Shown in pieces: positions 6,151-64,000 of a stretch of 64,000 nt of DNA. The notes below the pieces were generated by a model that was not told the origin of the DNA, made no database searches, and was given only the letters and a program-made list of their open reading frames with translations. A program made the position numbers and the translations under genes. The stretch comes from Aurantiacibacter poecillastricola (GTDB lineage: Bacteria > Pseudomonadota > Alphaproteobacteria > Sphingomonadales > Sphingomonadaceae): assembly GCF_030730945.1 (NCBI RefSeq), contig NZ_JAVAMS010000002.1, forward strand, positions 1,116,001 through 1,180,000. The letters are read 5' to 3'. Each line of letters opens with the position of its first letter. Position 1 is the stretch's first letter.

Positions 6151-6324
6151 CGCGATGCAGCCTGATAATATATCTTTCTATTACGGCGTTTGTGTCGACC
6201 CAGGTCGGTACATGAATAGCGCATTTGTTCGTTCTTATGCATTGAGCTGCGCGACGGCTTCGGCATTCGAAGAGAATATCGACTTGTGCCATGTGATTGG
6301 TCCTGCTAGCGGGGCCAAAGTGTC

Positions 6325-6669
6325 ATGACCCTCCGTATGCCCCTTCTTGCCTTGAAGCCGGTTTTCGCCATGCTGATTCTCTTCGGCCTGGTGTTCAGCG
6401 TAAGCGTGGACGCGGCGGTATGCGGGCCTGAAATTGGCGAACTTACAAGTGTCAAAGCTGCAAGTAGCGAGACTGGTCAAGACTTGCCGGACAGCCCGAA
6501 TGAGCAGCATGGCATCTGCGCCCACGGCCATTGCCATCATGGAGTCCAATTTGCAGGCAATGCGGATATCGGGGCCGGTGAGCGTTCATCCGGTGCACAG
6601 CATTTCTTCGAACCCGTCGGCCTGACTGCAGTCCAGCAAGCGATTTTGACGCCCCCTCCTCGAATCTGA
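6325..6669 (+). CDS. small exported protein with a Cys/His-rich motif
   Basis: The 114-residue product has a hydrophobic signal-like N-terminus (about residues 10-30). A Cys/His cluster, HGICAHGHCHHG, lies around residues 62-73 and is suited to binding transition metals. It sits about 60 nt before czcC, and similar small proteins often precede CzcCBA operons. I infer a periplasmic metal-binding or sensing helper for the efflux pump. No enzyme domain is visible, and the function is not established. Confidence 0.6.
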   Translation: MTLRMPLLALKPVFAMLILFGLVFSVSVDAAVCGPEIGELTSVKAASSETGQDLPDSPNEQHGICAHGHCHHGVQFAGNADIGAGERSSGAQHFFEPVGLTAVQQAILTPPPRI

Positions 6670-6733
6670 CGTCCAGTATTGCCGCCGCAATGTCGGCGCG
6701 CATTCGGCATGTCAGTAGAGGAAAAATCAATTC

Positions 6734-7987: not shown

Positions 7988-7998
7988 GGAAAATACCC

Positions 7999-38839: not shown

Positions 38840-38848
38840 GGCCGCGAC

Positions 38849-48600: not shown

Positions 48601-49440
48601 TGCTGCAGCCCACTGATGTATTGTGCTCCATAGATTGGCATGCCGGTCCGACGCGTCGTATTCAATCGGTGTTACGCCGCGATCCTGCCACGCTTCCAAG
48701 ACGCTTTGATCCCCGCCGGGCGCGAACGCATAAACAGGATTATCGTAAACCACACCTTTGCGATTATTCAGCCCTTCAAGCAGGTAGCGCATCGGCGGGT
48801 CTTCAGCACTGTAGCCGAGAAACACTAAGGTGTGACGCTCTCGCAGGTCTTTCACGAAGCGGGTTGCCCATCCCTCCGCTAAATACGCTCGGCCAAAGTC
48901 TGCACTGCTGATCACGTAGCTAGGCAATTCCCCTCTTTCAGGGTCGGCCAAGCGACCATGCAAATAGACCAGGCCATCGACCGCTCGGTTGATGTTTAGG
49001 TCGGGCAGGTTGGGTGGAACAATGAGCGGACCCTTGCATCCGGCTCGCTCGAATAATGTGTCGAAGTTCGTCGTGACAAGTTGTGTGGATCCCGCCGCAC
49101 CTTTCGAAAGCGATAGAATTGCCCGGTGGTTTGCGAGGGTCTTAGCCCGAATTTTGCCAAGTGCCTTGAATATCTCGCGGTCGATTTCAGATCGGTCAAA
49201 GTCCCTCTCGAGAAGATAGAAAATGCGATCAAAATCCCACCCCTCGTCGAGCCGCTTCCGGGCTGGTGTAGCATCGAGTGCAGTTACGATGCGATCAGTG
49301 AGTTGCCAGAAGCTATCAAGACCGGCGGGCATTGAAACTCCTGCCCCGCAAAAGAAAACCACGTTGCCCTGCATCTGCTGATTGAGCAGGTGCGATGGAA
49401 TATCCGGGCCGGTCTCGGCGAACCTCATAAGTCTGCCCAT
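45655..49440 (-). CDS. SIR2-domain defence protein (SIR2 + DUF4020-like, DSR1 type)
   Basis: The 1261-residue protein begins with a SIR2 NADase-like domain: GAGVS at residues 32-36, catalytic-type Asn125 in TTNFDTL, His161 in YLHGR, and FLGYSAEDPPMRYLL near residue 210. A very long helical C-terminal part follows, ending in a region I associate with DUF4020. SIR2 plus DUF4020 is the layout of the defence-associated sirtuin DSR1, which depletes NAD upon phage infection; this match is from memory. The lower GC content than the transfer genes suggests it was acquired. It is convergent with the nuclease-domain gene. Confidence 0.75.
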   Translation of the reverse strand: MGRLMRFAETGPDIPSHLLNQQMQGNVVFFCGAGVSMPAGLDSFWQLTDRIVTALDATPARKRLDEGWDFDRIFYLLERDFDRSEIDREIFKALGKIRAKTLANHRAILSLSKGAAGSTQLVTTNFDTLFERAGCKGPLIVPPNLPDLNINRAVDGLVYLHGRLADPERGELPSYVISSADFGRAYLAEGWATRFVKDLRERHTLVFLGYSAEDPPMRYLLEGLNNRKGVVYDNPVYAFAPGGDQSVLEAWQDRGVTPIEYDASDRHANLWSTIHQWAAAAEDPEQWAQSLVAKAQRGPRALLPYERGQVVELVGSSRGAAAFANADPSITSEWLSVFDPNARYGQPKSTGWGDDAEEVDPLELYGLDSDTPRPPKSTNKLYDEHVENPLAPKTDDETQAGVPTLHGQMTPYRLPLSPRMHHLARWFGEVSHEPPAVWWASGWKGLSPHLLWFVARRLRDRHGEKYPDEARHFWALYLEHAETQTFDEAEFRWFEFEGLVKTMGWNGQSLRYLERCLQPTVVAERPYIGAVWPTERDWAKVNLRNVVQLKVRVLDRHNTDLKIPDENLPQVVRIIRNSLIRMVELLDETGDFFWRCPNLHPTGKPGESNYGRKNQLVLWYRALFRRLVELDPTLALDEYRQWLKDEERLFAALRVWAATNEGFLSDVQALDLLHELRDQEFWSSNNQRGVMLLIKQIWPSSGSRQRGSLEKRLIAGPPRWDHQTDEEYRLRSAAHAASRLRWMELNGCELSTKAQKALTNLKTVDPRWSDEWAKSADDSMGSKGGMISEIRDAQGLESVAIDKVLGAAEALSTDDLAELREFKPFKGLVENHTFRALSALRRALKDDEFPVRRWIDLLSCWPARTPLRLKLLLAYTIIGLSADRALELRYYSTEWLKANIKALYRDRRSRALDIFDGFLRPFETADPSKTKSSLGQTSVGGEVVVTSEVSNAKAINSPLGKLAEALWSLTPRKAKKRGRLGQKFESRFERLISVPGDGAGHAVAILTKQLGWIVHCYEDWANEILIPLFDIKANHAEAAWHGLIYNQNPLPREVWDRLRDSFKIALKGAVEWPLDKEARKSLVDALVLLSDPTLDDGAIFNFAEVRSVLKELDQETRAHALWTLGNAISRRKNWTNFGKPFVEEAWPREKSFRSQEVTRGFLRIVDCSGEHFPDAVHTVKRFLLPVPHADTFTYRLSKELDDEESQALNHPEEALELLNAISGDDRASLPYGLRESLLALSTKNPTLREREDYRRLKALVE

Positions 49441-49954
49441 GCTCTTAGTTTGATTGGGAAAACTGCTATAGCGCTTATCGATCCGACCCGCACGGATTGG
49501 CTCGCGTAGTTGACAGGTTATCCCAAACCCGATCGCCGTTCTCTGTTAAAGCGATCAGCACTTACATTGGCGAAGGTAGTAGGCGTCCCGTGAAATGAGT
49601 ATGTCATGTTCCTTCTCGTTGGTCGGAATATCCCTGGACAGTGTCCGCTTTTGGGAACTTAGGCTACACATCGCTGCGTCTTTGATTAGAGCGCATTGCG
49701 GCCGTTGGCGCTCCTGACTGATCGGCAGGCCTCTGGGAGAAAGCTCTGTCATCGAATGACCGGTAAAAAGCCGGAAGAGGTTCTGCAAAGTGACGACTGC
49801 TGCGGTTTTCTGTCCGCCAATCTCCAATCATGATATGCAATGACATATGAGGAGTCAGGAATATATGTCCTTGCATATTTTTCTTGCCATTCTCACGGAT
49901 TGTTATATATGCTAAAATATATAACACTCGATGAGCATATGCAGAAACATATTT
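49441..49954. other. AT-rich intergenic region with hipBA operators
   Basis: The left part (49441-49830) shows no convincing gene; a 90-residue minus-strand frame at 49555-49827 has no family features. The right part is AT-rich and contains two inverted repeats, at 49833-49878 and within 49902-49925 (GTTATATA...TATATAAC). They look like the operators of the hipBA unit that starts at 49955. Confidence 0.55.
49833..49878. repeat. 16-bp inverted repeat upstream of hipBA
   Basis: ATATGCAATGACATAT (49833-49848) and ATATGTCCTTGCATAT (49863-49878) are reverse complements at 15 of 16 positions, separated by 14 nt. A TTTTT run follows directly. It can act as an AT-rich terminator for leftward-inserted cargo or as an operator of the HipB-type antitoxin. 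Confidence 0.6.
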
Positions 49955-50578
49955 ATGAGCACAGCAATCGAAGACATCGCCGCAAGCATCAAAGCGGCTC
50001 GGATAGCAAAGGGCTTTACCCAGAAAGAGCTGGGTGAGCGGGTAGGTTTACCTCAAAGCCATATTTCCAAAATCGAAGGCGGCAATGTGGACCTACAGAT
50101 TTCCAGCCTTGTCGAAATAGCGCGCGCGCTGGACCTCGAGTTGAAGCTTGTGCCTCGGAGGACCGTACCGGCGATCGAAGGCGTTTTGCGATCACAGCGC
50201 GAAAGAAGCGAGACAAGCCGAACGCTCGCAACGATTGCCGAAACCAACCGGTTCGCCGAGCGAGTACGGCAGAGCTATCCGAGCGTCACCGAAGTGACCG
50301 AGCTTCAGAGCGCACTCAAGGATATCCAGGCCGTTAATTTCACTCCCGAAACGCTCAAAGCCATCGAGCAGGCCTTGCAGCCCGTCGCTCATCTGAAAAA
50401 GCATCTTCAAGATCTCGGCTGGGCGCTTGAGCAGCAAGAGGGAAGGGAGAAACTCGCCCAGCAGATCACGGCATCCACACGTGCCCTCCAACACGTCAGA
50501 AACTTGCAGGTTCACGCAATCGATCGAAGTAGTGCCCCCAGACGGCCTGCTTACCGGCTTGAGGACGGCGCCACATGA
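49955..50578 (+). CDS. hipB: HipB-like antitoxin with long C-terminal extension
   Basis: The product has an XRE helix-turn-helix at about residues 5-60 (IKAARIAKGFTQKELGERVG, PQSHISKIEGG) as in HipB. It is then followed by about 145 further residues of predicted helix, giving 207 residues from the ATG at 49955, more than twice the usual HipB length. An ATG at 49931 is also in frame. Its stop overlaps the hipA start (ATGA). HipB binds HipA and represses the pair; the extension may add toxin control or oligomerisation. Confidence 0.82.
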   Translation: MSTAIEDIAASIKAARIAKGFTQKELGERVGLPQSHISKIEGGNVDLQISSLVEIARALDLELKLVPRRTVPAIEGVLRSQRERSETSRTLATIAETNRFAERVRQSYPSVTEVTELQSALKDIQAVNFTPETLKAIEQALQPVAHLKKHLQDLGWALEQQEGREKLAQQITASTRALQHVRNLQVHAIDRSSAPRRPAYRLEDGAT

Positions 50579-51789
50579 TCGACGCAGCGGCTCTCGACAT
50601 CTTTCTGGGTGAGACGCGCGTTGGAACGATTGCGCGCCTCGATGGAGATGCGAGCATCTTCACATTCGACGAAGTCTACCTTGCCGACCAGGAACGGCCG
50701 ACTCTGTCGCTCGCCTACAAGGACGCGAATGGCGAAATCATTGCGGACACACGCAGCTATCGAACGAAAATCGAGCCGTTCTTCTCCAACCTCCTCCCTG
50801 AAGGAACGCTTCGCGACTACCTGGCCCGCCGCGCGGGCGTGAAAGCCGCGCGCGAGTACCACCTTCTCGCACAGCTCGGGCACGATCTTCCCGGCGCAGT
50901 GCGCGCCGTCGCCGTCGATGCCGAGGAAAGGGAGGCTGACGAGCCCGATGATGAAGCGGTGGAGAAGCAGGCAGAGCGCGCGCTGCGCTTCTCGCTTGCC
51001 GGCGTCCAACTCAAATTCTCGGCGATCAAAGCCCAGGGCAAGAATGGCGGACTGACGATCCCGGTCACAGGCAGCGGCGGCGACTGGATCATCAAGCTGC
51101 CCTCTGCGAGACATCCGGACGTGCCCGAGGCAGAATTCGCAGCGATGAAACTGGCGGCAAAGATCGGGATCGACGTTCCTGAAATCGACCTTGTTCCGCT
51201 CGATCAGATCGATGGCATACCCGAAGGTATCACCCGTTACGGAGAGTCCGCTTTTGCCATCCGGCGCTTCGACCGGGGAGAAGAGGGACCCGTACACACC
51301 GAAGACTTCGCCCAGGTGTTCGGTGTCTTTGCAGACGATAAATACGAGAATGCGAGCTACCGCCAGATCCTCAGCGTGCTGGCGATCGAGACCGACGAGC
51401 AAAGCGTGGTCGAGTTCGTCCGCCGGCTCACCTACTCGGTGCTGATCGGGAATGGCGACATGCACCTCAAGAACTGGTCGTTGATCTATCCGGATAGGCG
51501 AAACGCGCTGCTGGCACCTGCCTATGACCTGCTTTCGACGCTCGCCTATATCCCAGGCGACGATGCTGCACTCAAGTTTCATAGCTCGCGCGAGTGGGCG
51601 TCCTACACCTATGATGAACTCGAAGCGATCGCCGACAAGGCAAGGCTGCCTGCCAAGCTGATCACCGCGACAGCGAGGGATGTCGTTGCACAGTTCGACG
51701 ACGCCTGGAGCAGCGAAAGCGGACACCTGCCCTTCCCCGATGACGTGCGAAGCGCGATTGAGAGGCATCGCAAAACTCTTGCGATCTGA
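50575..51789 (+). CDS. hipA: HipA-like serine/threonine kinase toxin
   Basis: The 404-residue protein is of the HipA family. It has a HipA N-terminal beta-barrel (LDIFLGETRVGTIARLD), an ATP-binding GGDWIIKLPS (about residue 175), catalytic NGDMHLKNWSLI (about residue 299), and DLLSTLAY after it. HipA-type kinases inactivate glutamyl-tRNA synthetase or similar targets and cause dormancy. The pair would stabilise the element or act in defence. It is convergent with traI. Confidence 0.9.
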   Translation: MIDAAALDIFLGETRVGTIARLDGDASIFTFDEVYLADQERPTLSLAYKDANGEIIADTRSYRTKIEPFFSNLLPEGTLRDYLARRAGVKAAREYHLLAQLGHDLPGAVRAVAVDAEEREADEPDDEAVEKQAERALRFSLAGVQLKFSAIKAQGKNGGLTIPVTGSGGDWIIKLPSARHPDVPEAEFAAMKLAAKIGIDVPEIDLVPLDQIDGIPEGITRYGESAFAIRRFDRGEEGPVHTEDFAQVFGVFADDKYENASYRQILSVLAIETDEQSVVEFVRRLTYSVLIGNGDMHLKNWSLIYPDRRNALLAPAYDLLSTLAYIPGDDAALKFHSSREWASYTYDELEAIADKARLPAKLITATARDVVAQFDDAWSSESGHLPFPDDVRSAIERHRKTLAI

Positions 51790-51882: not shown

Positions 51883-54795
51883 TCAAATCCCGAAATCCAG
51901 TGTCTTGCTCTTGCTTCGGGCGAGTTCCTTTTCGGCCTTGTTGGCCTCTTCCGGTTTTGGCGCATCAAGCTCGCCGTTTTTCCTTTTTGTCGCGGCCAAC
52001 CTCGCGGTGACCTCGAGGGCCGATGCCTTCTCGCCTTTGTTGCGTGCGACGGCCGCTCCGAGCTTGTCCGAACTGTCGACAACCAGCGTCAGGTGATCGC
52101 GAAGCCTCGTGATCGTCACCAGGAAGGTCTTCTGGTTCGACAGGTTGCGCTCGCGGCTGTCCATGACTGCAATGCCGCGATCGGATGTCAGACCCTGCGC
52201 CATGTGGGCGTTGAGCGCATAGGCAAGATCGATCCGCTTCAGCATCGGATCGTCCTTTTTGAGCTCGACCTGGTCTCCCTTGGAAGTTTCGAATGTGACC
52301 TTCCCGCCGACAATGGCAACCACCCTGGCCTGGTCGGCATTGAAGAGGCCGCGGCGATGATCGTTGCGGGTCCAGCGGATCCGGTCGCCTTCATGGATCT
52401 CGAGCTTCCTCGGCTCATGCAAGGTCAGATTCTGGTCGCCCTTTCCTGCCCTGATCCGCGCGGGATCGAACCGGAACCGCTTGCCGCGCTTGTCCGCGAC
52501 TTCGACCTGCCTGCCTTTCCCGTCCTGTCCCAAGACACGATACTCGCCCGCTGACAGTCCCAGCGCCTGTTGCTTTCTCGAGACCTCGAGCACCCTTCCC
52601 GGCCGGTAGACCGAAAGATGTCGCAGCTCCTCGCGGGTCGTGTTGACGCGGTCGAGCACTCCGAGCTCGGCCTTGCCCGGGCCAATCTCGCCATTGGCGA
52701 GAAGTCCTTGCTGGACGGCAGCATTGGCCGCAGAGCGGATGGCGCGTCCTGAAGCATAGATCGAAGTACGGGCGCGGGTTTCTTTGTCGAGCGCAAGCCA
52801 TGCTTCGGAGGCAACCAGCGCACCATCGCCCTTGGCCTCGATTATATGTTGTTTCAAGTGACGTAGCGCCTTGCGCACATCGCCCGTCTGCGCTGCCGCC
52901 TGCGCCTCGCGGATGACTGGATCGCGGGCACGCAGGTTGGTCGCCATTTCAGCGCGCGCCATACCCGTCCGCTGCAGCAGCGCGAAGGGCTTGCCCGCAT
53001 CGACTGCGCCGAGCTGCTTGCGGTCCCCCATCAGGACCAGCCGGTGAACGCCAGCCAGATTGGCAAGGCGGACGAGCTTCTCCTTTTCCTCGTTCGAAAC
53101 CATCGATGCCTCGTCGAGGACAAGCACATGGTCTTTCAGCGCCGCCTTTGCCTCCAAACGTAACGCCGCGTTGCCGGGATCTTTGAGCAGCTTGTTCCAG
53201 CCACCAAGAAAGCGTGCCAGCGTCTGCGAGCCCATGCCGGTGTCGCGTTCGAGCATCTGGACGAGCGTGTTCTGGATCGCGAGCCCCATGACCGGGTGGC
53301 CCTCGGAGCGCAGCACCTCGGCGACGGGTTTCAGAACGCTGCTCTTGCCGGCACCGGCAATTCCCTGGACCGCGATCGTTCGATCCTCGGACGTCAGGAT
53401 CAACTTCGCCGCCCCGAGCTGACCCGCGTTGAGGCGGAACCCCTGCCCTGCCATTGCAGCGGTCTGGACACGATCAGTCGCGCTTCCCGGCTCAACTGCA
53501 GATGAGCTCGCACCCTTGCCGGCGGCAACCTCGGACACGATCCGCTGCTCGGTCAGCACCGCGTCACGCGAGGCGAGCCAGCCCCTGTGGTCTCCCTTGC
53601 CCGCTATCAGGTCGCCGGAGCGCACCAAGGCGCGGGTCCGTCTTTCAATATCGGCAATCGTCGCTGGCAACCCGAAATCGAGCGCGGCCTTGTAGAGCGC
53701 GGTGCGCTCGAAGGCAGCCTCGCGCTGCGAAAGATGACGCACCGCCGAAGCGACGGCCTGTGCCGCTGCGATCGTCTCACGGTCCTGTCTGAGGACCGAC
53801 TTGGGCACGAGCGGATCGGCCGGATCGCCCCTGACATGCGCGGCAAAGCGTCCCAGCCATGCGCGCCCGCGCTCGACAAGCGAGCCGAACCTGCCAGTTT
53901 CGATCGACTGTTTCAGTGTGCGGGTCCGGGCCCGCTCGACCAAGGGGGAGAGGTCCAGTCCGATGGATTTCGCGGTGTCGCTCCAGAGCTTTCCCAGGGT
54001 TTCGCGGTCCTCGATCCCATCCTTGCTGGCGCGCGTATCGAGCGCGGCGATGCGGCCCGCTTCAAGACCAGGACCGCGCCGTGCATCGAGCACTTCCTGG
54101 CGCCGGCTTGAGAACGCCATGACCTGTTCACGGGTGATACCGCGCGCTTCGAAATTGCCGTGCTTGAGGGTCGGTCCCGGCTCGTAGCCCAACTTTTCGA
54201 CCGTGACGCGAAAGCGCGCCATCGCGATTGCATTGAGCGTGGTGTTGAGCTGCCAGAGCCGGTCATTCTTGAGCGTACGCCACTTCCCGTCCTTGCCTTG
54301 CGTGACATTGGCGATGACCGCGTGGAAATGGAGGTTCGGCTCCTGGTTGCGGTTGGTGTCGTGCTGGAACAGGCCGATCGCAAGGTTCCCGGTAGCCTGC
54401 GTTACGATCTTGCCTTTCTCCACCATCCGGGTCTCGGCCGCATTCTTCTCAGCCCAGTGCAGCGCTTCGAGGACGGCTTCGCGGTAGGCGGCGATGATCC
54501 GCTCGTCGTTCCCCACAAGTGCCAGCAGCGACCAGCTCTTGGGGACGGAGAAGGTGAGGTCTGTACCCGGACGGTGTACCTGTCCGGGATTGCCGACGCT
54601 GCTGCCGTCGGGCAGCTCGCCGCGCAGCAACGCATCGAACGCTTGGGCCTCGACCTTGCCATCGAGACCAAGGCGCTTTGCACCCTCGCCCACCCACTGG
54701 CCCGAGCGGTCGGCATCGGCGCTCGCGTAGTAATTGTCCGATGCGAAGTAGCTCGCAGCCGCCGAAGGCGAGCGGACATTGGCGACGGAAAGCAT
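51883..54795 (-). CDS. traI: MobF conjugative relaxase/helicase TraI
   Basis: The 970-residue protein combines a MobF relaxase (TrwC/TraI type) and a RecD-like helicase. The relaxase has tyrosines at 22-23 in NYYASAD and the HUH metal site in NLHFHAVIANV near residue 157. The helicase part shows GIAGAGKSS near residue 480, LDEASMVS, and a C-terminal NAHMAQGLTSDRG. It nicks oriT, stays bound to the 5' end, and unwinds DNA for transfer. It is the last gene of the operon, 49 nt after traD, and its predicted nic site is at 57756/57757. Confidence 0.93.
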   Translation of the reverse strand: MLSVANVRSPSAAASYFASDNYYASADADRSGQWVGEGAKRLGLDGKVEAQAFDALLRGELPDGSSVGNPGQVHRPGTDLTFSVPKSWSLLALVGNDERIIAAYREAVLEALHWAEKNAAETRMVEKGKIVTQATGNLAIGLFQHDTNRNQEPNLHFHAVIANVTQGKDGKWRTLKNDRLWQLNTTLNAIAMARFRVTVEKLGYEPGPTLKHGNFEARGITREQVMAFSSRRQEVLDARRGPGLEAGRIAALDTRASKDGIEDRETLGKLWSDTAKSIGLDLSPLVERARTRTLKQSIETGRFGSLVERGRAWLGRFAAHVRGDPADPLVPKSVLRQDRETIAAAQAVASAVRHLSQREAAFERTALYKAALDFGLPATIADIERRTRALVRSGDLIAGKGDHRGWLASRDAVLTEQRIVSEVAAGKGASSSAVEPGSATDRVQTAAMAGQGFRLNAGQLGAAKLILTSEDRTIAVQGIAGAGKSSVLKPVAEVLRSEGHPVMGLAIQNTLVQMLERDTGMGSQTLARFLGGWNKLLKDPGNAALRLEAKAALKDHVLVLDEASMVSNEEKEKLVRLANLAGVHRLVLMGDRKQLGAVDAGKPFALLQRTGMARAEMATNLRARDPVIREAQAAAQTGDVRKALRHLKQHIIEAKGDGALVASEAWLALDKETRARTSIYASGRAIRSAANAAVQQGLLANGEIGPGKAELGVLDRVNTTREELRHLSVYRPGRVLEVSRKQQALGLSAGEYRVLGQDGKGRQVEVADKRGKRFRFDPARIRAGKGDQNLTLHEPRKLEIHEGDRIRWTRNDHRRGLFNADQARVVAIVGGKVTFETSKGDQVELKKDDPMLKRIDLAYALNAHMAQGLTSDRGIAVMDSRERNLSNQKTFLVTITRLRDHLTLVVDSSDKLGAAVARNKGEKASALEVTARLAATKRKNGELDAPKPEEANKAEKELARSKSKTLDFGI

Positions 54796-54843: not shown

Positions 54844-57183
54844 TCACATATCCGGATCGAAGTCCCCGTAATCGTGACCATGGTCCTGCCCCTGATCGGC
54901 ATCGCGACCCTGCTTCGCTGCACCGCCAAGAAGCGACTTCTGCTGCTCTTCCTGGAGCCTCTGGTCGGCCTTGCCGCGCGCGACTTGTGCCCGCTGATGC
55001 GCTGCGGGATCGGGAATATCGGACCTGGCGGAAGGCACAGCCCGTTGCTCCATCCCGCGGTGCTCCTCAGCTTTCGAAGACAGAGGAAGTTCGGATTGAG
55101 CCGGCCGCTGAGGGTCCGATGTCGCCCTTTTCCCTCGTGCATTCGAATCGCGACGCTTCTTTGTCTGGTCCAGTCGAGCCTGATCGCCCTTGTTGCTGCG
55201 ATGGGTCCGGCGCAGTTCCTTTTTGTCTTCCTTGTCGGCTTTCTTTTCAGCGCTGTCGGAGCGATCGTGCGCGTCCCTCATCCGGCGAGGATCACCATCA
55301 TTGTCGCCTGTTTCAGAGGCTGCTCCGGCACCGCCCCCTGCTCCATCTTTATCATCAGCGTGCCGGGTCTGCGGCGGTGGCTTCGGCATATCGCGGGGAA
55401 TGAAGCCTTCGGCTACCCGAGGCCAGTTGCGCGGTGCGAGAACCACGGGTGCCGCCGGAAATCCTTCGGGAAACTTGATGAAACCATGAAGGTTCTTGAG
55501 CTTCATCAGCTCGTCAGGAAGCAGCAACGGAACGACCTGGCGCCGGGGCGTCAGGCTGACCGCGTCACGCGCATTGTTGTAGCCGTAGCTGTAACCTTCC
55601 TCCATCTCGCGAACCTCGCGGTGGCCGATGATATCGGAACACCAGGTGGCGGTCTCGCGATCTGCTGTGCCAAGGATCAGCTTGGTGCGGGCAAGCGAGG
55701 AGAGGGTCATCGCCATGTTCTCACCGTAGACATCCTTGAGCTTGGCAAAGGCATGAATCCCGGTGACGATCGCGCCCCCGAAATTGCGCGCGGTCTGGAG
55801 GCCCTTTTCGAGTGAAGGCAGGCGATGCAGCGCGCCAAGTTCGTCGATCAGGAACCAGAGCCTGATGTCCCGCGAGCGCTGGCCCGCCATCAGCGTATTG
55901 ATCGCGGTATCGAGCCACAGCGTGAGCAACTGCGAGAGCACGCTCATGTCGATGTAGCGCGCGGACAGAAACAGGATAGAGCCCGGTTTACCTGCCCCGT
56001 TGACCCACTCGCGGACCGAAAAGGGCGTCCCGTCTTCGGGCAGCATCTGGAGCGCCTTGGCGTTGACATTGAACACTGCACGCACCGATTCCGCCATGCG
56101 CGCCGCGCTCGGCGTGCTGATGGGACCGGCCATGGTATCTTCGACGAGACGGTGCAGATCGGAGAGATCGGCGTTCATGAGTTCGTGGGCGAGCGCGGCG
56201 TTGGTGCCCCGCCCCGCTTCGGCGAGCTTGAGACAGGTCTCGACGAACAGCGTGCGCGCGGCGAGCACCCAGAACTGTTCGGCGCCGCCCCCATCGTGCG
56301 GGACGAGGGACTCCGCCGCGGCATGGAATTCGGCACGCGTGGAGCAATCGTTGAACACGCTCCATGCGGGGCAACGCGCGTCGAGCGGGTTGAGAATGAT
56401 GTCGCGTTTGGGATCGTAGAAGGTTTCGACAAAGGCCCCGGTAAGATCGAAAATGACCGCACGTTCGCCCCGTTCACGGATCTCCCTGGTAAGCTCGGTT
56501 AGGACGACGGTCTTGCCTGTCCCGGTTGTGCCAACAAGCATCGCGTGGCTCTGCTCGAGGCGCCAAGGCCAGTTGACCCCTGCCAGATGCGCGGGAGAAT
56601 AGAAGCCCGCATCCCGCAGCGAAGCCGACCCGGCCAGACGCCAGCGCCAGCCCAACGCATCGCCATACTCGCGGGCACGGGCATTGCGGTTGTGCGCGGC
56701 GATCTCCCGGTCAAGTTCACGCAAGGTAGCAAGCTCCGCCCCGCGCACATGCTTCTTCTGTTTGGACTTCTCGCCGAAGCGTTCGGCAACCCACCAGAAA
56801 AGCGCGAAGAGCGGCGCAAGAATGAATCCGGCAAGCCACAAAGCGCTGATCACCGCACTCCGGAAAAGCGCGACCGCTTCGCGCATCGGCGGGTAATCGG
56901 TGACCACGGAAATTGGAAAAGCAACGAGGCTCCCGTCGGCAAGCTTGAGGTTCACAAGCTTGTTCGGGTCGAACTCCATGAAGGCATAGCCAGAGGCATA
57001 GGCATGCATCCACAGGAGGTAGACATGGTACTCGTCTAGCGCACCGCTTACGTCCCAATAGACGAGGCCGAGAACGACCAGGAGGGTCACGACCAAGGGC
57101 CCCTTCAGGCCCGCGGCAAACATGAAGCCGAAATGCCCCAGAAGCTGGCTGCCGCGGGTGAAGTTGACGAGATTATGCTTCAT
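54844..57183 (-). CDS. traD: type IV coupling protein TraD
   Basis: The protein of about 779 residues has two N-terminal membrane segments (about residues 18-55 and 115-140), a Walker A MLVGTTGTGKTVV near residue 220, and FLIDELGALHRLPSLEKGLQ. The C-terminus is long, charged and Lys/Arg/Gln-rich (from residue 610). TraD links the relaxosome to the secretion channel and pumps DNA. The ATG at 57183 (MKHNLVNFTRG) is preferred over the far upstream start, as it overlaps the preceding gene by 11 nt. Confidence 0.92.
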   Translation of the reverse strand: MKHNLVNFTRGSQLLGHFGFMFAAGLKGPLVVTLLVVLGLVYWDVSGALDEYHVYLLWMHAYASGYAFMEFDPNKLVNLKLADGSLVAFPISVVTDYPPMREAVALFRSAVISALWLAGFILAPLFALFWWVAERFGEKSKQKKHVRGAELATLRELDREIAAHNRNARAREYGDALGWRWRLAGSASLRDAGFYSPAHLAGVNWPWRLEQSHAMLVGTTGTGKTVVLTELTREIRERGERAVIFDLTGAFVETFYDPKRDIILNPLDARCPAWSVFNDCSTRAEFHAAAESLVPHDGGGAEQFWVLAARTLFVETCLKLAEAGRGTNAALAHELMNADLSDLHRLVEDTMAGPISTPSAARMAESVRAVFNVNAKALQMLPEDGTPFSVREWVNGAGKPGSILFLSARYIDMSVLSQLLTLWLDTAINTLMAGQRSRDIRLWFLIDELGALHRLPSLEKGLQTARNFGGAIVTGIHAFAKLKDVYGENMAMTLSSLARTKLILGTADRETATWCSDIIGHREVREMEEGYSYGYNNARDAVSLTPRRQVVPLLLPDELMKLKNLHGFIKFPEGFPAAPVVLAPRNWPRVAEGFIPRDMPKPPPQTRHADDKDGAGGGAGAASETGDNDGDPRRMRDAHDRSDSAEKKADKEDKKELRRTHRSNKGDQARLDQTKKRRDSNARGKRATSDPQRPAQSELPLSSKAEEHRGMEQRAVPSARSDIPDPAAHQRAQVARGKADQRLQEEQQKSLLGGAAKQGRDADQGQDHGHDYGDFDPDM

Positions 57184-57502
57184 CGTCGTCTCCCATGGGT
57201 CGGGGTGCAATGATACCGAGGCGCTCCAGCCGGCGCTGGTAGGCAGCGACGGTTTTATCACGCAAGGTAGTGTCGGGATGATGCGTAAGCAGCGCATCTA
57301 ATGCGACAGTGATGAAGATGTTCTGGCGGACCGGATCGGTCGATGGAGTCCTCAGATCAGCTTCGGTTGCGCGATGCCAGGCATCGAAGATGCAATCGCA
57401 AACAACGATACTCGCGCTGACCCTGCGCTCGTCTGCTTGTTTCCTGATCCATTCGGCGATCAGGGGCGTGACATAGGTCACGAACCGGTGGTGTCTTTGC
57501 AT
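57173..57502 (-). CDS. small protein first in the traD-traI operon, putative relaxosome accessory
   Basis: The 109-residue product is soluble, basic to neutral, and ends in an acidic MGDDDEA. No known domain is certain, although its size and place next to oriT and before traD match accessory DNA-binding proteins such as TrwA/TraY/TraM. Its start at 57502 lies 73 nt from a 21-bp element shared with the pilin promoter. The role is inferred from context. Confidence 0.6.
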   Translation of the reverse strand: MQRHHRFVTYVTPLIAEWIRKQADERRVSASIVVCDCIFDAWHRATEADLRTPSTDPVRQNIFITVALDALLTHHPDTTLRDKTVAAYQRRLERLGIIAPRPMGDDDEA

Positions 57503-57595: not shown

Positions 57596-57733
57596 ATTCA
57601 CATAGCTTTTCAGAAAATTAAACGGATCTGTGCCGACTCGGCACGGACGAGCGAGCAACTGGGCCGCATCCGGCACAGAAGATGACATCGGCGAAATTTC
57701 GTGAATTCGCGAAGCAATTCCGCGCCTTCCATT

Positions 57734-57757
57734 GCAGCACCCGCTGCGTACGGTGTG
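57734..57757 (+). other. predicted oriT stem-loop and nic site
   Basis: GCAGC-ACCC-GCTGC (57734-57747) forms a short hairpin directly followed by GTACGGTGT (57748-57756) and G57757. In F, a hairpin ending TTTTTGC is followed by GTGGGGTGT and the nick before GG; in R388 a hairpin ending GGTGC is followed by GTATTGTCT and the nick. The 9-nt spacing matches both, and 7 of 9 bases match F. The predicted nick is between 57756 and 57757 on the plus strand. Confidence 0.65.
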
Positions 57758-58084
57758 CCTGTCAAGTTCCAATGTGTGCGGGGCTTTTCAGGAGGCCCTG
57801 AGTTCCGTTCAATGGGTTGAATTCTAATCCTTATTCTTGGAGCGCGAGCAATTGTGTCCTCGTAGGGAAAAGCGAGATTCAGGGCGAAAATGCCGGTGGG
57901 CTACCAACTGGCCTTAGTTATGTGAGAATCCCCCTCGGCGGGTCATTCCCCAGGCGGGCCAATTGCCCGGTCGTTTGAGAGGATCATAGGGACCAGATAG
58001 CCATCACCGGACTGTCCCAAGATCGAATGGAGATGAGGTGCAGAACGATCGGGAATACCCATCTCTCCTAACCCTGCGAACAAG

Positions 58085-58116
58085 AAAAAAGGCAGGAACC
58101 GTTCCCGGTCCCCGCC
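58085..58116 (-). terminator. rho-independent terminator after the 73-residue gene
   Basis: On the minus strand GGCGGGGACC (58116-58107), loop GGGAAC and GGTTCCTGCC (58100-58091) pair with two G-U wobbles. TTTTTT (58090-58085) follows. It would end minus-strand transcription of the leading-region genes and insulate oriT. Confidence 0.8.
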
Positions 58117-58128
58117 CTGATCCTACGG

Positions 58129-58350
58129 TCAGAACTCATCGAGCATTGCCCCATGAACCGTATGCACCACGCGCGCTGCAAGATGCGCAGGAAGCGCGTT
58201 GTAGTCACCCTCATCCAAAGCAAAGTATCCGAGTTCTCGGTCCTCAACGATATGCTGATCGAAGAAGCTGTGCAACGCCCGACGCTCTGCCACAGCCAGC
58301 GCGGCAAAGTAGCGTTCCGAGTTCGAATTGATCCGAGCAATTGAAGCCAT
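58129..58350 (-). CDS. 73-residue soluble protein in the leading region
   Basis: The 73-codon frame has AGGAGG about 6 nt upstream of its ATG at 58350 and is followed by a strong terminator. The product (MASIARINSNSERYFAALAV...) is helical and acidic at the end. No family is recognised. It is probably a small leading-region protein expressed early after transfer. Confidence 0.55.
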   Translation of the reverse strand: MASIARINSNSERYFAALAVAERRALHSFFDQHIVEDRELGYFALDEGDYNALPAHLAARVVHTVHGAMLDEF

Positions 58351-58587
58351 TGTATCCTCCTGATGTCTGCCGTTGACGGCAGGAGCAGGACGGATGGGCG
58401 TGCGGCCGGCGGGTCAGGGATCGCCCACTTGGGCGACCGCGAAGCGGCGGTAGGGGTAACGATTTTGTCGGACCGTAGCGTAGCGAAGGGGAGTCAAAAT
58501 GGTGGGACCCTGCCGTCCTTGACGCGCCTGTTGCACGGCCATCAGAATGGGAGAACGTGAGCCAGGCCCCTCCCCTCCGGTCCCAAG

Positions 58588-59025
58588 CTAGATAGCTCCC
58601 GAGACCTTCTGCGCGACCTCTGTCAGCGTCGCCTGCAGGCGGTTGATCTCCGATAGGCTGGTCCCGCTGGGCACGTATCGCGTCACAAGAAATTCGCGCG
58701 ACTGCGACATGGCATGCAGGTGTTCCCGCGTCCGCTTCCGCAGCACCAGCCCAAGCTCGACTGCGAGGTCCGCCCTTGCCGCGAGGTTGTGCTGGAGACC
58801 CCGGACCTCGCCCGCGCTGTGACCCGATCGGAGAAGGAATGCGTTGAGGTAAAGCTCGACCGCATGAATCGCGACCATGCGAAACGGCGCCCGCGACCTG
58901 GGTTCTCCGGGCCGTCCATTCTGCACGAGAAGCTGGGCCGCGATCCGATACTCATTTGCAAGTGCCACAACCTCGGCTGCAGTCGCGGCCTCACCCGGAT
59001 AGCAAACGATCGCCTGGTCAGTCAT
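58588..59025 (-). CDS. HEPN-domain-like small protein
   Basis: The 145-residue protein, started at the ATG at 59025 because the longer upstream frame is a shadow of ssb, is all-helical. It shows the HEPN-type pattern HAVELYLNAFLLRSGHSAGE, then LQHNLAARADLA, and an RKRTREH stretch at residues 96-102 that could be the Rx4-6H ribonuclease motif. HEPN proteins are common RNases in defence and toxin systems. The assignment is by pattern only and is moderate. Confidence 0.5.
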   Translation of the reverse strand: MTDQAIVCYPGEAATAAEVVALANEYRIAAQLLVQNGRPGEPRSRAPFRMVAIHAVELYLNAFLLRSGHSAGEVRGLQHNLAARADLAVELGLVLRKRTREHLHAMSQSREFLVTRYVPSGTSLSEINRLQATLTEVAQKVSGAI

Positions 59026-59090
59026 GGCGCTCTTCGTAGCACCGCTTTTGCAAACGATTACTGAAAGTTCTTCGGCGTTCCATACGCGAG

Positions 59091-59125
59091 GAAGGGGCCC
59101 TGTCCGGCTGGGACAGGACCCCTTC
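59091..59125. repeat. 15-bp stem-loop between ssb and the HEPN-like gene
   Basis: GAAGGGGCCCTGTCC (59091-59105), loop GGCTG, and GGACAGGACCCCTTC (59111-59125) pair at 14 of 15 positions. No U-tract follows on the minus strand. It may be a transcription barrier that adjusts expression after ssb or a structure used in single-stranded DNA. Confidence 0.65.
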
Positions 59126-59149
59126 GGGAGGCGAGATCGAGGTGAGAGT

Positions 59150-59548
59150 TCAGTCGATCTCGGGAGCGTCCTGGTTGTCGTGATCGTCACCGCTGCCGTT
59201 GCCGCGCGAGAGGAAGTCGACCTTGTCGGCGAGGATCTCGGTGCCGTAGCGCGTGCCCCCGTCCTTGTCCTCCCACTGGGTGTAGTGGATGCGGCCCTGA
59301 ACACTGACCAGCTGGCCCTTGGAACAGTACTGGCCGACGGTCTTGGCGAGGCCGTTGAAGCAGGTAACCCGGTGGAACTCGCTTTCCTTGGCGGTGTAGC
59401 CGTTCTCGTCCTTGTAGGTCTTGCCGTCCTTGTCCCGCGCAGGGCGATCGGTGACGACAGTGATCCCGGTGACATTGGTGCCGCCCTTGGTCTCGCGGGT
59501 GTCGGGATCGCGGGCGATGCGGCCGGTAATGATGGCGATATTGGTCAT
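59150..59548 (-). CDS. ssb: single-stranded DNA-binding protein
   Basis: The 132-residue SSB has the OB-fold pattern MTNIAIITGRIARDPDTRE, FHRVTCFNGLAKTVGQYCSKG and LVSVQGRIHYTQWEDKDGG, and a short acidic tail. It is shorter than chromosomal SSB and the C-terminal tip (DAPEID) lacks the standard DDDIPF end. SSB genes are typical of leading regions, where they protect newly arrived single-stranded DNA. The plus strand, predicted to be transferred, is its template. Confidence 0.9.
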   Translation of the reverse strand: MTNIAIITGRIARDPDTRETKGGTNVTGITVVTDRPARDKDGKTYKDENGYTAKESEFHRVTCFNGLAKTVGQYCSKGQLVSVQGRIHYTQWEDKDGGTRYGTEILADKVDFLSRGNGSGDDHDNQDAPEID

Positions 59549-60203
59549 GATGGTAGTCCTTCAGTTCCTTAAACCGGAGACCATCTCCGGCTTGCGAACA
59601 TCCAGAAGAAGCAGGGCATGGGAGGACTGCACCGCAGGGGCAAAGCTCCAAGGGAAACCTGTTCATGACGGGTGGTGCGGGCAGGCAGCGCAGCTGCCAA
59701 CACGGCCGGAAAGGAACGGGTTGCCGTCCTCAGCTGACCTGGTTCAGGACTGTTCGCGACTAAAGCCGGATGGGTATCGGGTGTGGGTCTGCAGGCTCAC
59801 TTGACCTTTCCTGCAATCAGCTAACGCCATCGCCCTCCGATGCCTCCAGGAGATCCATGAAGTTGCAGGCTGCTTCTCGGTCTTGCTCGTTCTCGAACGC
59901 CACATCGAGATCGGGGGCTGACCCGAACATGTGCAGGAACGATCACAGGGCAAAGTGCTCAGCGGCAGCGTAATTTGAGGCAGATAAGTCCGTACTGCGC
60001 CCTCTAGGTAGCCTTTCGACATGGCTCGCATCGTCCTTAAAAGTGGTCGTCCGTCGGGCCGATGGACCGCAGTGCAGGAGCAGGATCAAAACGCCGTCGC
60101 TGCTGGTGAATCGGAAGTCGCGGTTGGCACGCGCATCGCTGCATAGTTCAACGATGACCTGGGGCTCGTACTAGCGGCCTGTCCAACATGCGCTGCCACT
60201 TGA
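59549..60203. other. intergenic stretch between ssb and the Gabija-like pair
   Basis: About 650 bases carry no gene I can support. Short frames exist on both strands (for instance 59817-59930 minus and 60021-60146 plus), but they lack ribosome-binding sites. The stretch upstream of ssb (59549-59620) must contain its promoter. It may mark the junction between the conjugation module and the defence module. Confidence 0.4.
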
Positions 60204-61880
60204 TCACATGGCTACCGCGCTGGCCCCGAAAAGCGCCTCGATTTTGGCCTGGGCCCCAACCCCGAGGTCAGCCACAATCAGCTTGTCTTTGGCGCGCGAG
60301 CAACAAACATAGAAGAGGTGGCGGGTTCTCCGCTCCCGGCTTTCGCTGGTGTCGGTTCCTGCCAGCAGCTTGCCAAACGAGTATTGGTTCCAGTTCGCGC
60401 CAGCGTCATCCAAAACCACGATCACGTTCTGAAATTCATCGCCTTTCACGCCGTGTTTGGTTGAGAACGGCATGCTGTTTTCCAGCACGGCGCGGTAACG
60501 ACTGACTTCCAGATAGGGCACCGCCAGAAGAAGATCCAGAAAGGCCTGATGCGCTGCCTCGGGCGATCCTGCCTCGGCAGCCACCACAGGGCCTGCCACG
60601 GCCGCTTCCAAGTCATCAAGGAGTGTGACCAATTGCGCTGCCCGCAGATGCATTAAGATTGCTTCAATCGTTCCTCCGGCATCAATTAGTTTGATGAGGT
60701 CATCTAGGGCCGCCTTCACTCGCGCCTTCTCGGCTGCCCCCGCGATCGGGATCGGGCGTTCCTTCAATGAACTGATAGCGCGCCCCACCCGCCCTTCACG
60801 CCAAGCAGTAATAAATGGCTCGACTTTTTTAAGGAAGAAGGCTGCAATCGGGTCTTCGCCGCTCTGAAACTTATCTTGCGCAAAGCTTCCCCGACTGGCG
60901 AAGGCTGCCAATAGATCGGCATATCCGGCCTTGCGGGCGATAAGGCGGTGAGTGAGGAATAGAACCTTCAACTCGCCCTGTACACTCCAGCCGAAGACAT
61001 CCTGCGCTTTCTGGACGGCGAGTTCGGCAATGTCCGCGTCCGGAGCCGTGCCGGTGAGACTGACATACACCGCGCCCCCCGGTAAATTGGCACCCGCTGG
61101 CTCCTGCTGAATGTCAGTTCGGACCTTGTTGAGAACGTCGATCACCGCCTTGGAGCACCGATAGTTCTCCTCCTTCTTGATTTGAACCAGCTGTGCCTGC
61201 TGATCGGCCGACAATTCGCCGACCCCTCCCGAATAGATGTTCTGCATCTTGTCGCCAAAGAAACCGATCAGCGGGGGATGCTCTGTCTTAAGAAGATGAT
61301 CCAACAGGGCGGAGACAACCAGCGGATCAGTGTCCTGGTATTCGTCTACAAATATGAACGGGAATCGAGCGGCGACCACTTTCGATAAAAGCGGATGGTC
61401 GTGGAACATAATGTGAGCCACGCCCAAAAGGTCGTCGTGAAAAATTCGGCCTTCCAAGAAGTTTGCGCCGCGATCGGAGTAGGCGATCGTCGGTACCGTC
61501 TTTAAAGCTTCTGCCAATTCCTCCTGATCTTGCTTTCTGCGGCTGCTTGCAGGCAACCGGTCATTGAACGCAAGAAGGGCGGGCCTCAGCTCTTTCTGAA
61601 AGTTTTTGATCGAGGCCCATAAGAAGTCGTGGATCGTTGAGACCACAAACAAGGGGTCGTGCTCTGTACGCTCGATGATCTCATTCTTTGCTACATTCGT
61701 GAAAGTAATGCACGCCACACGCTGGCCTTCCCCGATAACGCTCGAACGGTCCGGTCCTCGAATGAAATCAAGAGCGCGAATGAGGGACGATGTTTTGCCC
61801 GAGCCCGCCCCGGCGTCGATCAGGAAGCTCTGTCGCGTGTGCAGACAATCCAGGATTTTTTCGTCCGCTTCCGTCATCAT
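60204..61880 (-). CDS. gajB: UvrD/REP-like helicase, GajB-type (Gabija)
   Basis: The 558-residue protein has the Walker A GAGSGKT at residues 24-30, a DExx box FVDEYQDTDP, GDKMQNIYSG, and the C-terminal motif HGVKGDEFQNVIVVLDD with RHLFYVCCSRAKDKLIV. It is a superfamily-1 helicase of the UvrD/Rep type. Its start overlaps the stop of the OLD-family gene (ATGA at 61880-61877), so the two form a unit. An OLD nuclease followed by a UvrD helicase is the Gabija anti-phage system (GajA/GajB). In the known system GajB acts with GajA in degrading or sensing DNA. Confidence 0.85.
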   Translation of the reverse strand: MMTEADEKILDCLHTRQSFLIDAGAGSGKTSSLIRALDFIRGPDRSSVIGEGQRVACITFTNVAKNEIIERTEHDPLFVVSTIHDFLWASIKNFQKELRPALLAFNDRLPASSRRKQDQEELAEALKTVPTIAYSDRGANFLEGRIFHDDLLGVAHIMFHDHPLLSKVVAARFPFIFVDEYQDTDPLVVSALLDHLLKTEHPPLIGFFGDKMQNIYSGGVGELSADQQAQLVQIKKEENYRCSKAVIDVLNKVRTDIQQEPAGANLPGGAVYVSLTGTAPDADIAELAVQKAQDVFGWSVQGELKVLFLTHRLIARKAGYADLLAAFASRGSFAQDKFQSGEDPIAAFFLKKVEPFITAWREGRVGRAISSLKERPIPIAGAAEKARVKAALDDLIKLIDAGGTIEAILMHLRAAQLVTLLDDLEAAVAGPVVAAEAGSPEAAHQAFLDLLLAVPYLEVSRYRAVLENSMPFSTKHGVKGDEFQNVIVVLDDAGANWNQYSFGKLLAGTDTSESRERRTRHLFYVCCSRAKDKLIVADLGVGAQAKIEALFGASAVAM

Positions 61881-63874
61881 TTTGCGGGATGCTCGGCCAG
61901 CCATTGGAGGCCTTGTTGAATATAGAGGGGAATCTCCCAGCCTGGTGCGCCCATCAGATCGAGGGCGAAATCGACCTTCCCGAGCTTGCCGCTCAACTCC
62001 CACGCTTGTGCTGTCAGGCCTGCGTCTATCGCTTTCTTGACGGCAGCCTTAGTCGTGCTGAGCTTGGCATGATTGTCAGTCAGCCAAGTGATGTTGGCGT
62101 AGATGAATGCTTCCTCGAATGAACGACCACAATGCCCGTCCTGGGTGACCTGATAGGCAACCCGAATGCAGCCTTGCGTCTTGGCCGCATTATCGCAGGC
62201 TTGCAATTCTTCGACGGTTTCCTTCTCGGGAATCCATTTGCGGAGACAGGCGTTGCTAGTGCTTTTCCCCGTCGCGACCGGGCATTTTTTTCCTCCGTCA
62301 TCGACCGAGTCCAGGTCGGTAATGATCAGGCTCGGAATGCCAAGAAAGTCGATGATCGGCTTAAACTTATGGGCGTGCCCCCCGCCCACCTCAGAAATGC
62401 TGACATACTGACTTCCGAGCGTCTCGCAGCCAGCCACCTTGGCTTGCTCCTCAATCATCATTGGGAGCAGCAGCCGCTCGACCTGGCCTTCCACGAAGAT
62501 GGCCTTGTCCGCGAAAAACAGATCGCAATGAGTCAGTCGAACATAGCGGCGCAGGAAGTCGAGAAGGTCGGGGTTGTGTGGTGGCAGCGGTAGCTGCGAA
62601 AGGTCCTGCATGACGACCTGACGGCCAACCCTGCGGAAATAGCGCACGGGCTCGAACTCAGAATGAGCGATCATGTGGGACGAGTGTGTGGAGAGCAGAA
62701 CTTGTGCTGTCGTCCCTCCGTCCGTTTCCAAAACCTTCGAAATCTCGCTGATGAAAACCGTCTGCATCTGCGGGTGCAGGTGCGCCTCGGGTTCTTCAAT
62801 CGCGATTATATGAACGCGCGGCTTGTCGCCCATCGTCGCGTCGATCGCAGCGCGGAAGGACTCCAGCTGCAGGACAATGTAAATCAGGTTTTTGTAGCCG
62901 AGCCCGTTATATTTTTCGGGCAGCTCGAACTCCTCCATTACTCCTTCTTTTTCGGCGTGTTCGCTGGCATAATATATTCGCGCATTGTCACGGTAAATTG
63001 TTTCTGCGCTCAGTTCAGCACGTACCCTCAGGTCCGGCGCTTTTTGGCCTGGCGGATAGCCAAAACTCTGAAGGCGCTTCGTCAAACGGCCAAAGGCTTT
63101 GCCGTACATCCCCGTAAGGTCGCCTGCGCTCGCCGTGAGTGCATCTTCGATCGCTTGATAACCGGCAGCGTCATCGACCCGATAGAAGCGTTCGTAATGA
63201 TCGTGGAGAAGTTTTGAGAGCTTCGCGGACCGGCTTCCCTCATCGTCATCGACGTGCCGCTGAGCGGGCACGATGTCGATGCGCAGTAGGGATTTCAGCA
63301 AATTGCCGTCTTCGAGTTGTTCCACTTCTTTGCCGTCAGGGGACACTTTGAAGAAAACGCGTTTGAAATGATCTCTGAACGTCTCTTTCAGATAGTCGCA
63401 CAGCGAGACGTCTTTGCGAGGCCTGGCCCCAAACTCGTCGAGAAGCTTTTTCGCGTTCTCCAGTCGATAGTCGATCCGCATGCGCACTCTGCTTGTGCCA
63501 GGCGTAAGGTCCATCAAAAGCTTGGTGGCTGCAACGAGGTCGGCGGGATCTTCGCCATAGGAAAAGGTCAGATCGAGCCGCATACGCGGTGTAAGCCGCC
63601 TAAGCAGCTCAATCTTCTTTTCTGGATCAGCTTCAGCCGCAACCTTTCGCTCGATCCGCTTCAGGTCCCGGTGGCGAAGCTGAGAGAGGTCGTGGAAGGA
63701 GATTTTAGGAGCCTCGGCTCCTTGCCCGATAAACAGCCGGAGAGCCTCCATTACTGAGGTTTTCCCGCTATTGTTCGGCCCCACCAAAATGGTCGTCGTT
63801 TTGTCCTGGGCGAGATCGATTGAGAGTCGGCGCAGCAACCTGAAGTTTCGGATCTTAATGTTCTCAAGGCGCAT
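61877..63874 (-). CDS. gajA: OLD-family ATPase/TOPRIM nuclease, GajA-type (Gabija)
   Basis: The 665-residue protein has an N-terminal ABC-type ATPase (GPNNSGKTSVMEAL at about residues 33-46; IAIEEPEAHLHP near residue 348) and a C-terminal TOPRIM nuclease (AIFVEGQVERLLLP, LIITDLDSVDDGG). This is the OLD-family build, and adjacency to a UvrD helicase places it in the class that contains GajA. It is longer than the best-known GajA (about 580 residues), with extra length between ATPase and TOPRIM. GajA cuts DNA when nucleotide levels fall during infection. Confidence 0.87.
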   Translation of the reverse strand: MRLENIKIRNFRLLRRLSIDLAQDKTTTILVGPNNSGKTSVMEALRLFIGQGAEAPKISFHDLSQLRHRDLKRIERKVAAEADPEKKIELLRRLTPRMRLDLTFSYGEDPADLVAATKLLMDLTPGTSRVRMRIDYRLENAKKLLDEFGARPRKDVSLCDYLKETFRDHFKRVFFKVSPDGKEVEQLEDGNLLKSLLRIDIVPAQRHVDDDEGSRSAKLSKLLHDHYERFYRVDDAAGYQAIEDALTASAGDLTGMYGKAFGRLTKRLQSFGYPPGQKAPDLRVRAELSAETIYRDNARIYYASEHAEKEGVMEEFELPEKYNGLGYKNLIYIVLQLESFRAAIDATMGDKPRVHIIAIEEPEAHLHPQMQTVFISEISKVLETDGGTTAQVLLSTHSSHMIAHSEFEPVRYFRRVGRQVVMQDLSQLPLPPHNPDLLDFLRRYVRLTHCDLFFADKAIFVEGQVERLLLPMMIEEQAKVAGCETLGSQYVSISEVGGGHAHKFKPIIDFLGIPSLIITDLDSVDDGGKKCPVATGKSTSNACLRKWIPEKETVEELQACDNAAKTQGCIRVAYQVTQDGHCGRSFEEAFIYANITWLTDNHAKLSTTKAAVKKAIDAGLTAQAWELSGKLGKVDFALDLMGAPGWEIPLYIQQGLQWLAEHPAK

Positions 63875-64000
63875 GCGGTCATTATCTCAAATGGCTCGAA
63901 GATCTCGAAGGTGACTGTAGGGCCATCCTGACACAAGGGGGGAGTAGTTTGCTATCGAATTGAACCGGAATCGCCTGTCACTCGATCCCGGGTGGCTTGA

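Follow-up and report, generated by a model that had tools for sequence, protein, structure and literature searches.

A 24-nucleotide sequence in the genome of Aurantiacibacter poecillastricola, at positions 57734-57757 of the 64,000-nucleotide stretch analysed here (the window), raises two questions. Is it the origin-of-transfer site at which a MobF relaxase would nick, and do the genes that follow it belong to the same conjugative element? Sequence comparison makes it very probable that a MOBF oriT nic region and an attachment site of recombinase-bearing mobile elements coincide at these positions, and that one such element, equipped with Gabija, is docked here.

Anatomy of a predicted nic region

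The site and the genes of the conjugative element around it are as follows.

57630-57644, no strand: palindrome GTGCCGA-c-TCGGCAC in the left arm of the predicted oriT, a candidate accessory-protein site
57734-57747, plus strand: hairpin with arm GCAGC (57734-57738), loop ACCC (57739-57742) and arm GCTGC (57743-57747), directly 5' of the nick stretch
57748-57756, plus strand: nine-base nick stretch GTACGGTGT, followed by G at 57757, with nic predicted at 57756/57757
57173-57502, minus strand: 109-aa accessory gene, first in the operon and ribbon-helix-helix-like by position and pattern
54844-57297, minus strand: TraD coupling protein (PF10412, 1e-154)
51883-54795, minus strand: TraI relaxase-helicase, MobF (PF08751, 2.7e-78), whose best solved relative is F TraI (5n8o)
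25927-41551, plus strand: F-type T4SS genes TrbI/TraB-like, DsbC-like, TraC, TraU, TraN, TraF, TraH and TraG (among ten proteins scanned)

A sequence-only reading had described a hairpin, nine bases and a G at these positions, which matches the sequence to the base, and a gap of 231 nt to the first gene of the MobF operon, which agrees with our map because the minus-strand 109-aa ORF has its start at 57502. It had also called the arrangement a hybrid F/R388 architecture; there is nothing special in this, as hairpin, spacer and nick form the published layout of both plasmids. The F nic region is given as a 49-mer, GCAAAAAC-TT-GTTTTTGC-GTGGGGTGT/GGTG (PMC5422253; a slash marks nic here and below), and that of R388 as CGCACC-GAAA-GGTGCG-TATTGTCT/ATAG (Table 1 of PMC4814116). 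Comparison with these known MobF oriT sequences, which the same reading had proposed as a check, gives seven of nine bases shared with F and a hairpin layout like that of both. The nine-base spacing claimed for the two plasmids holds for F but not for R388, whose authors count eight bases from arm to nic in that source, nine being reached only with a 5-bp stem. As in F and R388, a MobF relaxase gene is adjacent and the hairpin lies directly 5' of an 8-9 base single-stranded stretch that ends at nic, predicted here from sequence anatomy. Unlike in F and R388, the hairpin arms and right side are of other sequence, and the sphingomonad family keeps GTNNGGTGT/GC.

The 109-aa accessory protein has no Pfam match, and its predicted structure is of low confidence (mean pLDDT 60). 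Plasmid proteins encoded in the same position match PF01402 (RHH_1) in three of five cases scanned, and BLASTP of the 109-aa protein to one of them gives a weak match (E 0.004). The palindrome of the window is present in five of 15 left arms examined, the remainder having other inverted repeats or none of at least 6 bp.

Because the window sits in a 1.21-Mb contig, we call the carrier of the site an ICE-like, chromosomally located F-type (MOBF) conjugative element. Elsewhere in the window are metal-type cargo genes for cation efflux, an FTR1-cytochrome protein, outer-membrane efflux and AcrB/CzcA-family proteins (3596-12448, plus strand); a SIR2_2-domain protein of 1261 aa close to the relaxase operon, possibly a defence gene of the host element (45655-49440, minus strand); and a HipB/HipA-like pair adjoining TraI (49931-51789, plus strand).

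Recurrence of the site in related elements and distant plasmids

A stem of at least 5 bp with a loop of 3-5, then nine bases of which at least seven match F, then G, occurs once in the 64-kb window when both strands are searched. Thirty dinucleotide shuffles yield 0.1 such hairpin-nonamer sites per 64-kb window, so one window could hold one by chance. Comparative data contradict that explanation. We collected 37 loci with relatives of the window TraI, 36 of them at 55-94% identity over the best segment and one (L042) at 32%. A single site of the form (GCTGC or TCCGG)GT[A/C]CGGTGTGC is found in 34 sequences (the window, contig C2 and 32 loci); the pattern is absent from L010, L018, L035, L039 and L042, four of which are truncated contigs. 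On the host side, the distance between core and accessory gene is 243-255 nt in every case in which that gene was detected. Locus L036, with a TraI of 55% identity, keeps GTACGGTGTGC behind a different stem, CCGG-ATCT-CCGG. The 16-mer GCTGCGTMCGGTGTGC occurs in 50 of 397 family genomes, with 0 in every row for a reversed-pattern control. Given this recurrence at a kept distance, its counterpart in the plasmids described below and the empty control, a chance hairpin beside an F-like nonamer is exceedingly improbable. The distant relative L042, from the cyanobacterium Waterburya, has GTCTGGTGT/GAG about 190 nt upstream of its 32% MobF relaxase, in the same orientation and with no clean hairpin, a possible distant nic.

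Sequences of the GTNNGGTGT/GC type are found in related ICE-like elements, in plasmids and at the ends of the mobile elements treated in the next section. One might therefore suppose that the site is purely an attachment site for recombinases, near the relaxase operon by chance, with nic elsewhere; indeed, much of the strict conservation stems from elements that use the site as their attachment core. Plasmids without such recombinases speak to this point. A tblastn search of PLSDB returned at least 5000 records, and we examined 13 sphingomonad MOBF plasmids out of 60 matches listed, their TraI proteins being 40-45% identical to that of the window. None has any of the island recombinases in the stretch examined, and a search for near-identical DNA with the oriT region of the window gave no plasmid match. 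A strict pattern, hairpin plus G[T/C]NNNGTGT, is present in eight of the 13, against 0.0046 per segment in shuffles; seven of these sites lie 227-256 nt from the accessory gene and that of L149 lies at 770 nt, while a second match in L155, at 800, is evidently spurious. Relaxed inspection adds L157 and L158, with clean hairpins and ATAGGGTGT/GC, and L154 and L156, with GTAGGGTGT/GC and an imperfect hairpin; L148 lacks the site by either approach. The stretch is thus found in 12 of 13 plasmids and a clean hairpin in 10 of 13.

The plasmid arm pairs differ (GCAG/CTGC, GCACC/GGTGC, ACGGC/GCCGT, GCTA/TAGC and others), and L153 reads GCACC-TTTA-GGTGC-GTGGGGTGT/GC, the nonamer of F behind an R388-like hairpin. 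Among the relatives of the window, too, hairpin arms vary yet stay complementary outside the shared core, while the nick stretch is kept. That recombinase-free plasmids have hairpin and nick stretch in the same place, that the nine bases resemble those of F and equal them in L153, and that varying arms preserve pairing outside the shared core all argue against a pure attachment site, which we consider very unlikely. The assignment of 57734-57757 as the oriT nic region of a MOBF conjugative element is strongly supported by comparison. The proposed nic at 57756/57757 gains from the accessory-gene spacing kept in relatives and from the recurrence of stretch and hairpin in distant MOBF plasmids, and the rightward direction of transfer predicted from it fits the position of the tra genes, on the side that would enter last.

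Mobile elements docked at the nick stretch

The site is also an attachment site: at the copy in the window, a 22,291-bp mobile element has its left junction. The features here are as follows.

57743-57758, plus strand: 16-bp core GCTGCGTACGGTGTGC, the left attachment junction, repeated at the right end of the element (C12:1196034-1196049)
57757-64000, plus strand: left part of the inserted 22,291-bp element, which runs past the window to C12:1196047 (L044:16047)
57770-57781, plus strand: right-side motif like CCAATTGCGCGG, with 4 mismatches here, common to element left ends and native right sides
58068-58340, minus strand: orf90, an element gene with homologs also on native right sides
59150-59548, minus strand: single-strand binding protein (ssb) of the inserted element (PF00436, 2.2e-27)
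60204-62003, minus strand: GajB-like helicase (Gabija), element cargo (PADLOC GajB, 8.5e-164)
61877-63874, minus strand: GajA-like ATPase-TOPRIM nuclease (Gabija), element cargo (PADLOC GajA, 9e-182)

Six genomes, that of the window included, have a same-orientation pair of cores exactly 22,291 bp apart. Between the cores, the other five are 98.7-99.99% identical to the window. Outside the element, identity over the left 5 kb falls to 81.7-94.8% in four of them, and megablast finds no match there in the fifth (G338); to the right, flanking DNA can be aligned only in part, at 85-91%. Five further elements with both ends seen measure 20,675, 22,049, 14,148, 11,212 and 11,456 bp, which with the six 22,291-bp copies makes 11 elements of six types. 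Between filled G305 and empty L033 (Citromicrobium sp. JLT1363), an ungapped comparison shows 3 differences in 5000 nt on the left and 2 in 3000 on the right. For other filled sites, similarity to the best empties is 69-99.8% per side; the least similar are G342 (71 and 55%) and G006 (88 and 63%), for which no close empty was available. Element ends match empty flanks at only 52-59%.

The sequences left and right of the core assort independently. In L006 and L007, the 1.5 kb to the left of nic is 100% identical, and the right sides bear no relation to each other. The left sides of L021 and L038 are likewise 100% identical up to the core, and their right sides are unrelated apart from partial similarity further right. 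In the pairs L007/L040 and L008/L020, similarity is 83-99% to the right of the core, against 59-85% to its left. The genome of the window itself has two copies of the exact 23-mer of the site, six core matches and four recombinase places of at least 48% identity, with sites or ends on C2, C8, C12, C31 and C5. With up to 4 mismatches allowed, CCAATTGCGCGG is found in 21 of the 25 distinct left ends of elements and in 32 of the 37 right sides classed as native or other, compared with 16% of random 42-mers; these counts are descriptive, because the motif was picked by eye from these same sequences. Probable tandem arrays at one oriT are seen in L133 (G321), L127 (G249), G544:C1 (663721 and 689752) and G538:C1, where a right end is followed by the apparent left end of another element or recombinase copies lie 26 kb apart.

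These boundaries bear on the earlier proposal that ssb and its neighbours lie in the strand that enters first. This stands if transfer starts at the predicted nic, but not in the sense of the conjugative element's own leading region: the genes form the left end of the 22,291-bp element and so belong to the island. The host conjugative element has ssb-like and orf90-like genes of its own beyond the second nick copy.

That second hairpin-nick copy, which reads GCAGC-TTAG-GCTGC-GTACGGTGT at the right end of the element, lies beside two tyrosine-recombinase genes, with the TyrB gene within 27 nt of nick 2; none of the hosts' left-arm palindromes occurs in the five element right ends examined. Both recombinases match PF00589 and read intact in the element of the window, and the genes overlap by one base where coordinates were checked. 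We searched 296 genomes of the order with one recombinase, scoring at most six candidates per genome. Matches were found in 42 genomes, and among the candidates scored, 22 places in 16 genomes reach at least 48% identity. A clean hairpin and nick stretch lie just outside the recombinase gene in 20 of these 22 places, including G000:C8 (L095) and G000:C12 in the genome of the window, and in none of 14 loci of other integrases at 33-38% (L175-L188). The two remaining places are L173, with the nick stretch and no clean hairpin, before a gene whose start we take to read like a sirtuin, and L189, where a hairpin is present, the stretch is lost after GTCCGG and only GCTGCGTCCGG of the core is kept. 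L189 and L173/L201 are apparent elements at secondary, non-oriT sites. Four arm pairs occur among the elements (GCAGC/GCTGC, GCCGC/GCGGC, GCATC/GATGC and GCAGT/ACTGC), so the sequence shared by element and host can shrink to about GTNNGGTGTGC.

A census de-duplicated by 60 nt on each side gives 91 core sites: 54 host-side, 19 element right ends and 18 other. Of these, 48 of 54, 19 of 19 and 6 of 18, respectively, have a stem of at least 4 bp (G-T allowed) whose base is nine bases from nic. When the stem is slid by one base, stems persist in 27 to 52 of the 54 host-side sites, so the position of the stem has no discriminating value within the GCTGC group. Islands occupy at least 26 of the 54 host sites: 23 are recognised by a left-end similarity of at least 0.74 (11 of them supplied the templates), and L130, L138 and L140 by a recombinase pair on the right-hand side. 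Twelve of the 18 other matches lack a hairpin, nine of them in one coding-like context (aacttgtcc...GCTGCGTCCGGTGTGC...ttgccggt). These nine (L112, L121, L123, L126, L131, L132, L141, L142 and L144) have the 16-mer with C at -7, no hairpin and no tra genes; we treat them as coincidental and as matches to be filtered from motif surveys.

Which enzyme makes the junctions? Breakpoints fall in the nick core, and TrwC of R388 is described as catalysing site-specific integration into an oriT copy (PMC3264647), so TraI might recombine two oriTs and swap right-hand modules, with the tyrosine recombinases as bystanders. We judge this improbable. A pair of adjacent tyrosine recombinases marks the right end of all 11 elements seen with both ends, relatives of the recombinase are predictive of the motif, and elements also occupy sites without an oriT (L189 and L173). 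Moreover, the base at -7 differs in six of 14 host-side pairs whose left 500 nt are at least 99% identical, reflecting about three independent changes (4 of 12 pairs with right-side similarity below 0.75, and both of the others), which points to an exchange 5' of -7 and not at the T/G joint. In the empty/filled pair, the empty core and the left junction both have A at -7, whereas the right junction has C. We infer, modestly, that -7 lies within the recombinase overlap.

Transfer, precedents and implications

Integration by the recombinases at a MOBF nic region, the reading we favour, suggests the following sequence of events. TraI (51883-54795) would bind the hairpin and cut the plus strand at 57756/57757, and DNA to the right of the predicted nic would enter the recipient first. 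Judging by the anatomy, the adjacent tyrosine recombinase pair would insert a circular element within the nick stretch. After insertion, each junction has a complete hairpin and nick stretch, that of the host on the left and an element-borne one on the right. Because no relaxase was detected in the element, it would most likely spread by borrowing the TraI and T4SS of the host for its own nick copy, either in trans or in cis. Pfam scans found no relaxase family among the ORFs covered (15 genes of the window element and 7 of 12 ORFs in G000:C31, 8 of 9 in G130, 10 of 13 in G396, 5 of 9 in G342 and 3 of 6 in G208), and tblastn with the window TraI found no relative in the 11 elements. More tentatively, and as a possibility we rather doubt, the element could be a nick-to-nick hitchhiker, with the full oriT of the host (nick 1) as start and the minimal hairpin-nick of the element (nick 2) as stop. 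The 22.3-kb island would then be exported as a single-stranded DNA circle without prior excision, and the host element behind nick 2 would be held back. If true, the island would travel on the host relaxase and antiviral defence genes would be the first DNA into the recipient.

Five of the six element types have defence-like genes. Besides Gabija, the window element encodes a type IIG/DrmMI-like protein (PADLOC), efflux genes, hydrolases and an ABC1 kinase. The G000:C31 element has ZorD, ZorA and LmuB, with EH_Signature and OmpA proteins between, presumably ZorC and ZorB. A DruM-like methylase and OLD are found in the G130 element, a type IIG enzyme and PDC-S73 in G208, methylases and weak restriction matches in G342, and sulfatases, GH3 and transporters (Pfam) in G396.

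The closest precedent is that of the streptococcal IME_oriTs, of which the elements described here are a MOBF, apparently relaxase-less variant. As described in PMC7563843 and PMC5704250, IME_oriTs integrate by tyrosine recombinase into the nic region of ICE oriTs, do not move in cis with their ICE and use their own relaxase. As in those accounts, our elements are integrated at a (predicted) nic region with a known empty site and tyrosine recombinase at one end, and near-identical copies are found in distant hosts, with varied cargo and occasional non-oriT sites. The streptococcal elements, by the same descriptions, occupy MobT oriTs of Firmicutes, measure 2.7-10.9 kb and encode a Rep_trans relaxase of their own, whereas the present ones occupy MOBF sites in Alphaproteobacteria, measure 11.2-22.3 kb and have two adjacent recombinases, no detected relaxase and defence-rich cargo. 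Relaxase-less mobile genomic islands of Proteobacteria with a helper-like oriT, such as the SXT-mobilised MGIVflInd1, are also on record (PMC5704250). As presented there, these share with our elements a tyrosine integrase, the lack of a detected relaxase and a helper-like oriT sequence (here the right-end hairpin and nick stretch, together with the right-side motif at the left end), but insert at other places in the chromosome, outside the helper; here the nick stretch of the helper is itself the integration site, with only L189 and L173 deviating among the 22 recombinase places. Strand-biased integrative elements likewise have several tyrosine recombinases and no HUH relaxase and are found with conjugative plasmids; the account in PMC9345347, in the parts that describe them, identifies no oriT and reports no nic targeting.

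In the literature searched, mostly outside subscription journals, we found no islands docked in a MOBF nick site, the arrangement being known from MobT elements of Firmicutes, and no paper on the oriTs of this alphaproteobacterial MOBF group, which seem little studied. The novel finding is that recombinase-bearing islands of one family, rich in defence genes, are docked in a MOBF nick site. For a large group of alphaproteobacterial MOBF elements, the comparison predicts concretely where nic lies, and it cautions that genes immediately to the right of an oriT are not necessarily the element's own leading region. More broadly, mobile islands hitch themselves to conjugative elements at the conserved nick stretch and, because five of the six island types carry defence-like genes, this links the spread of defence to the leading position of conjugation.
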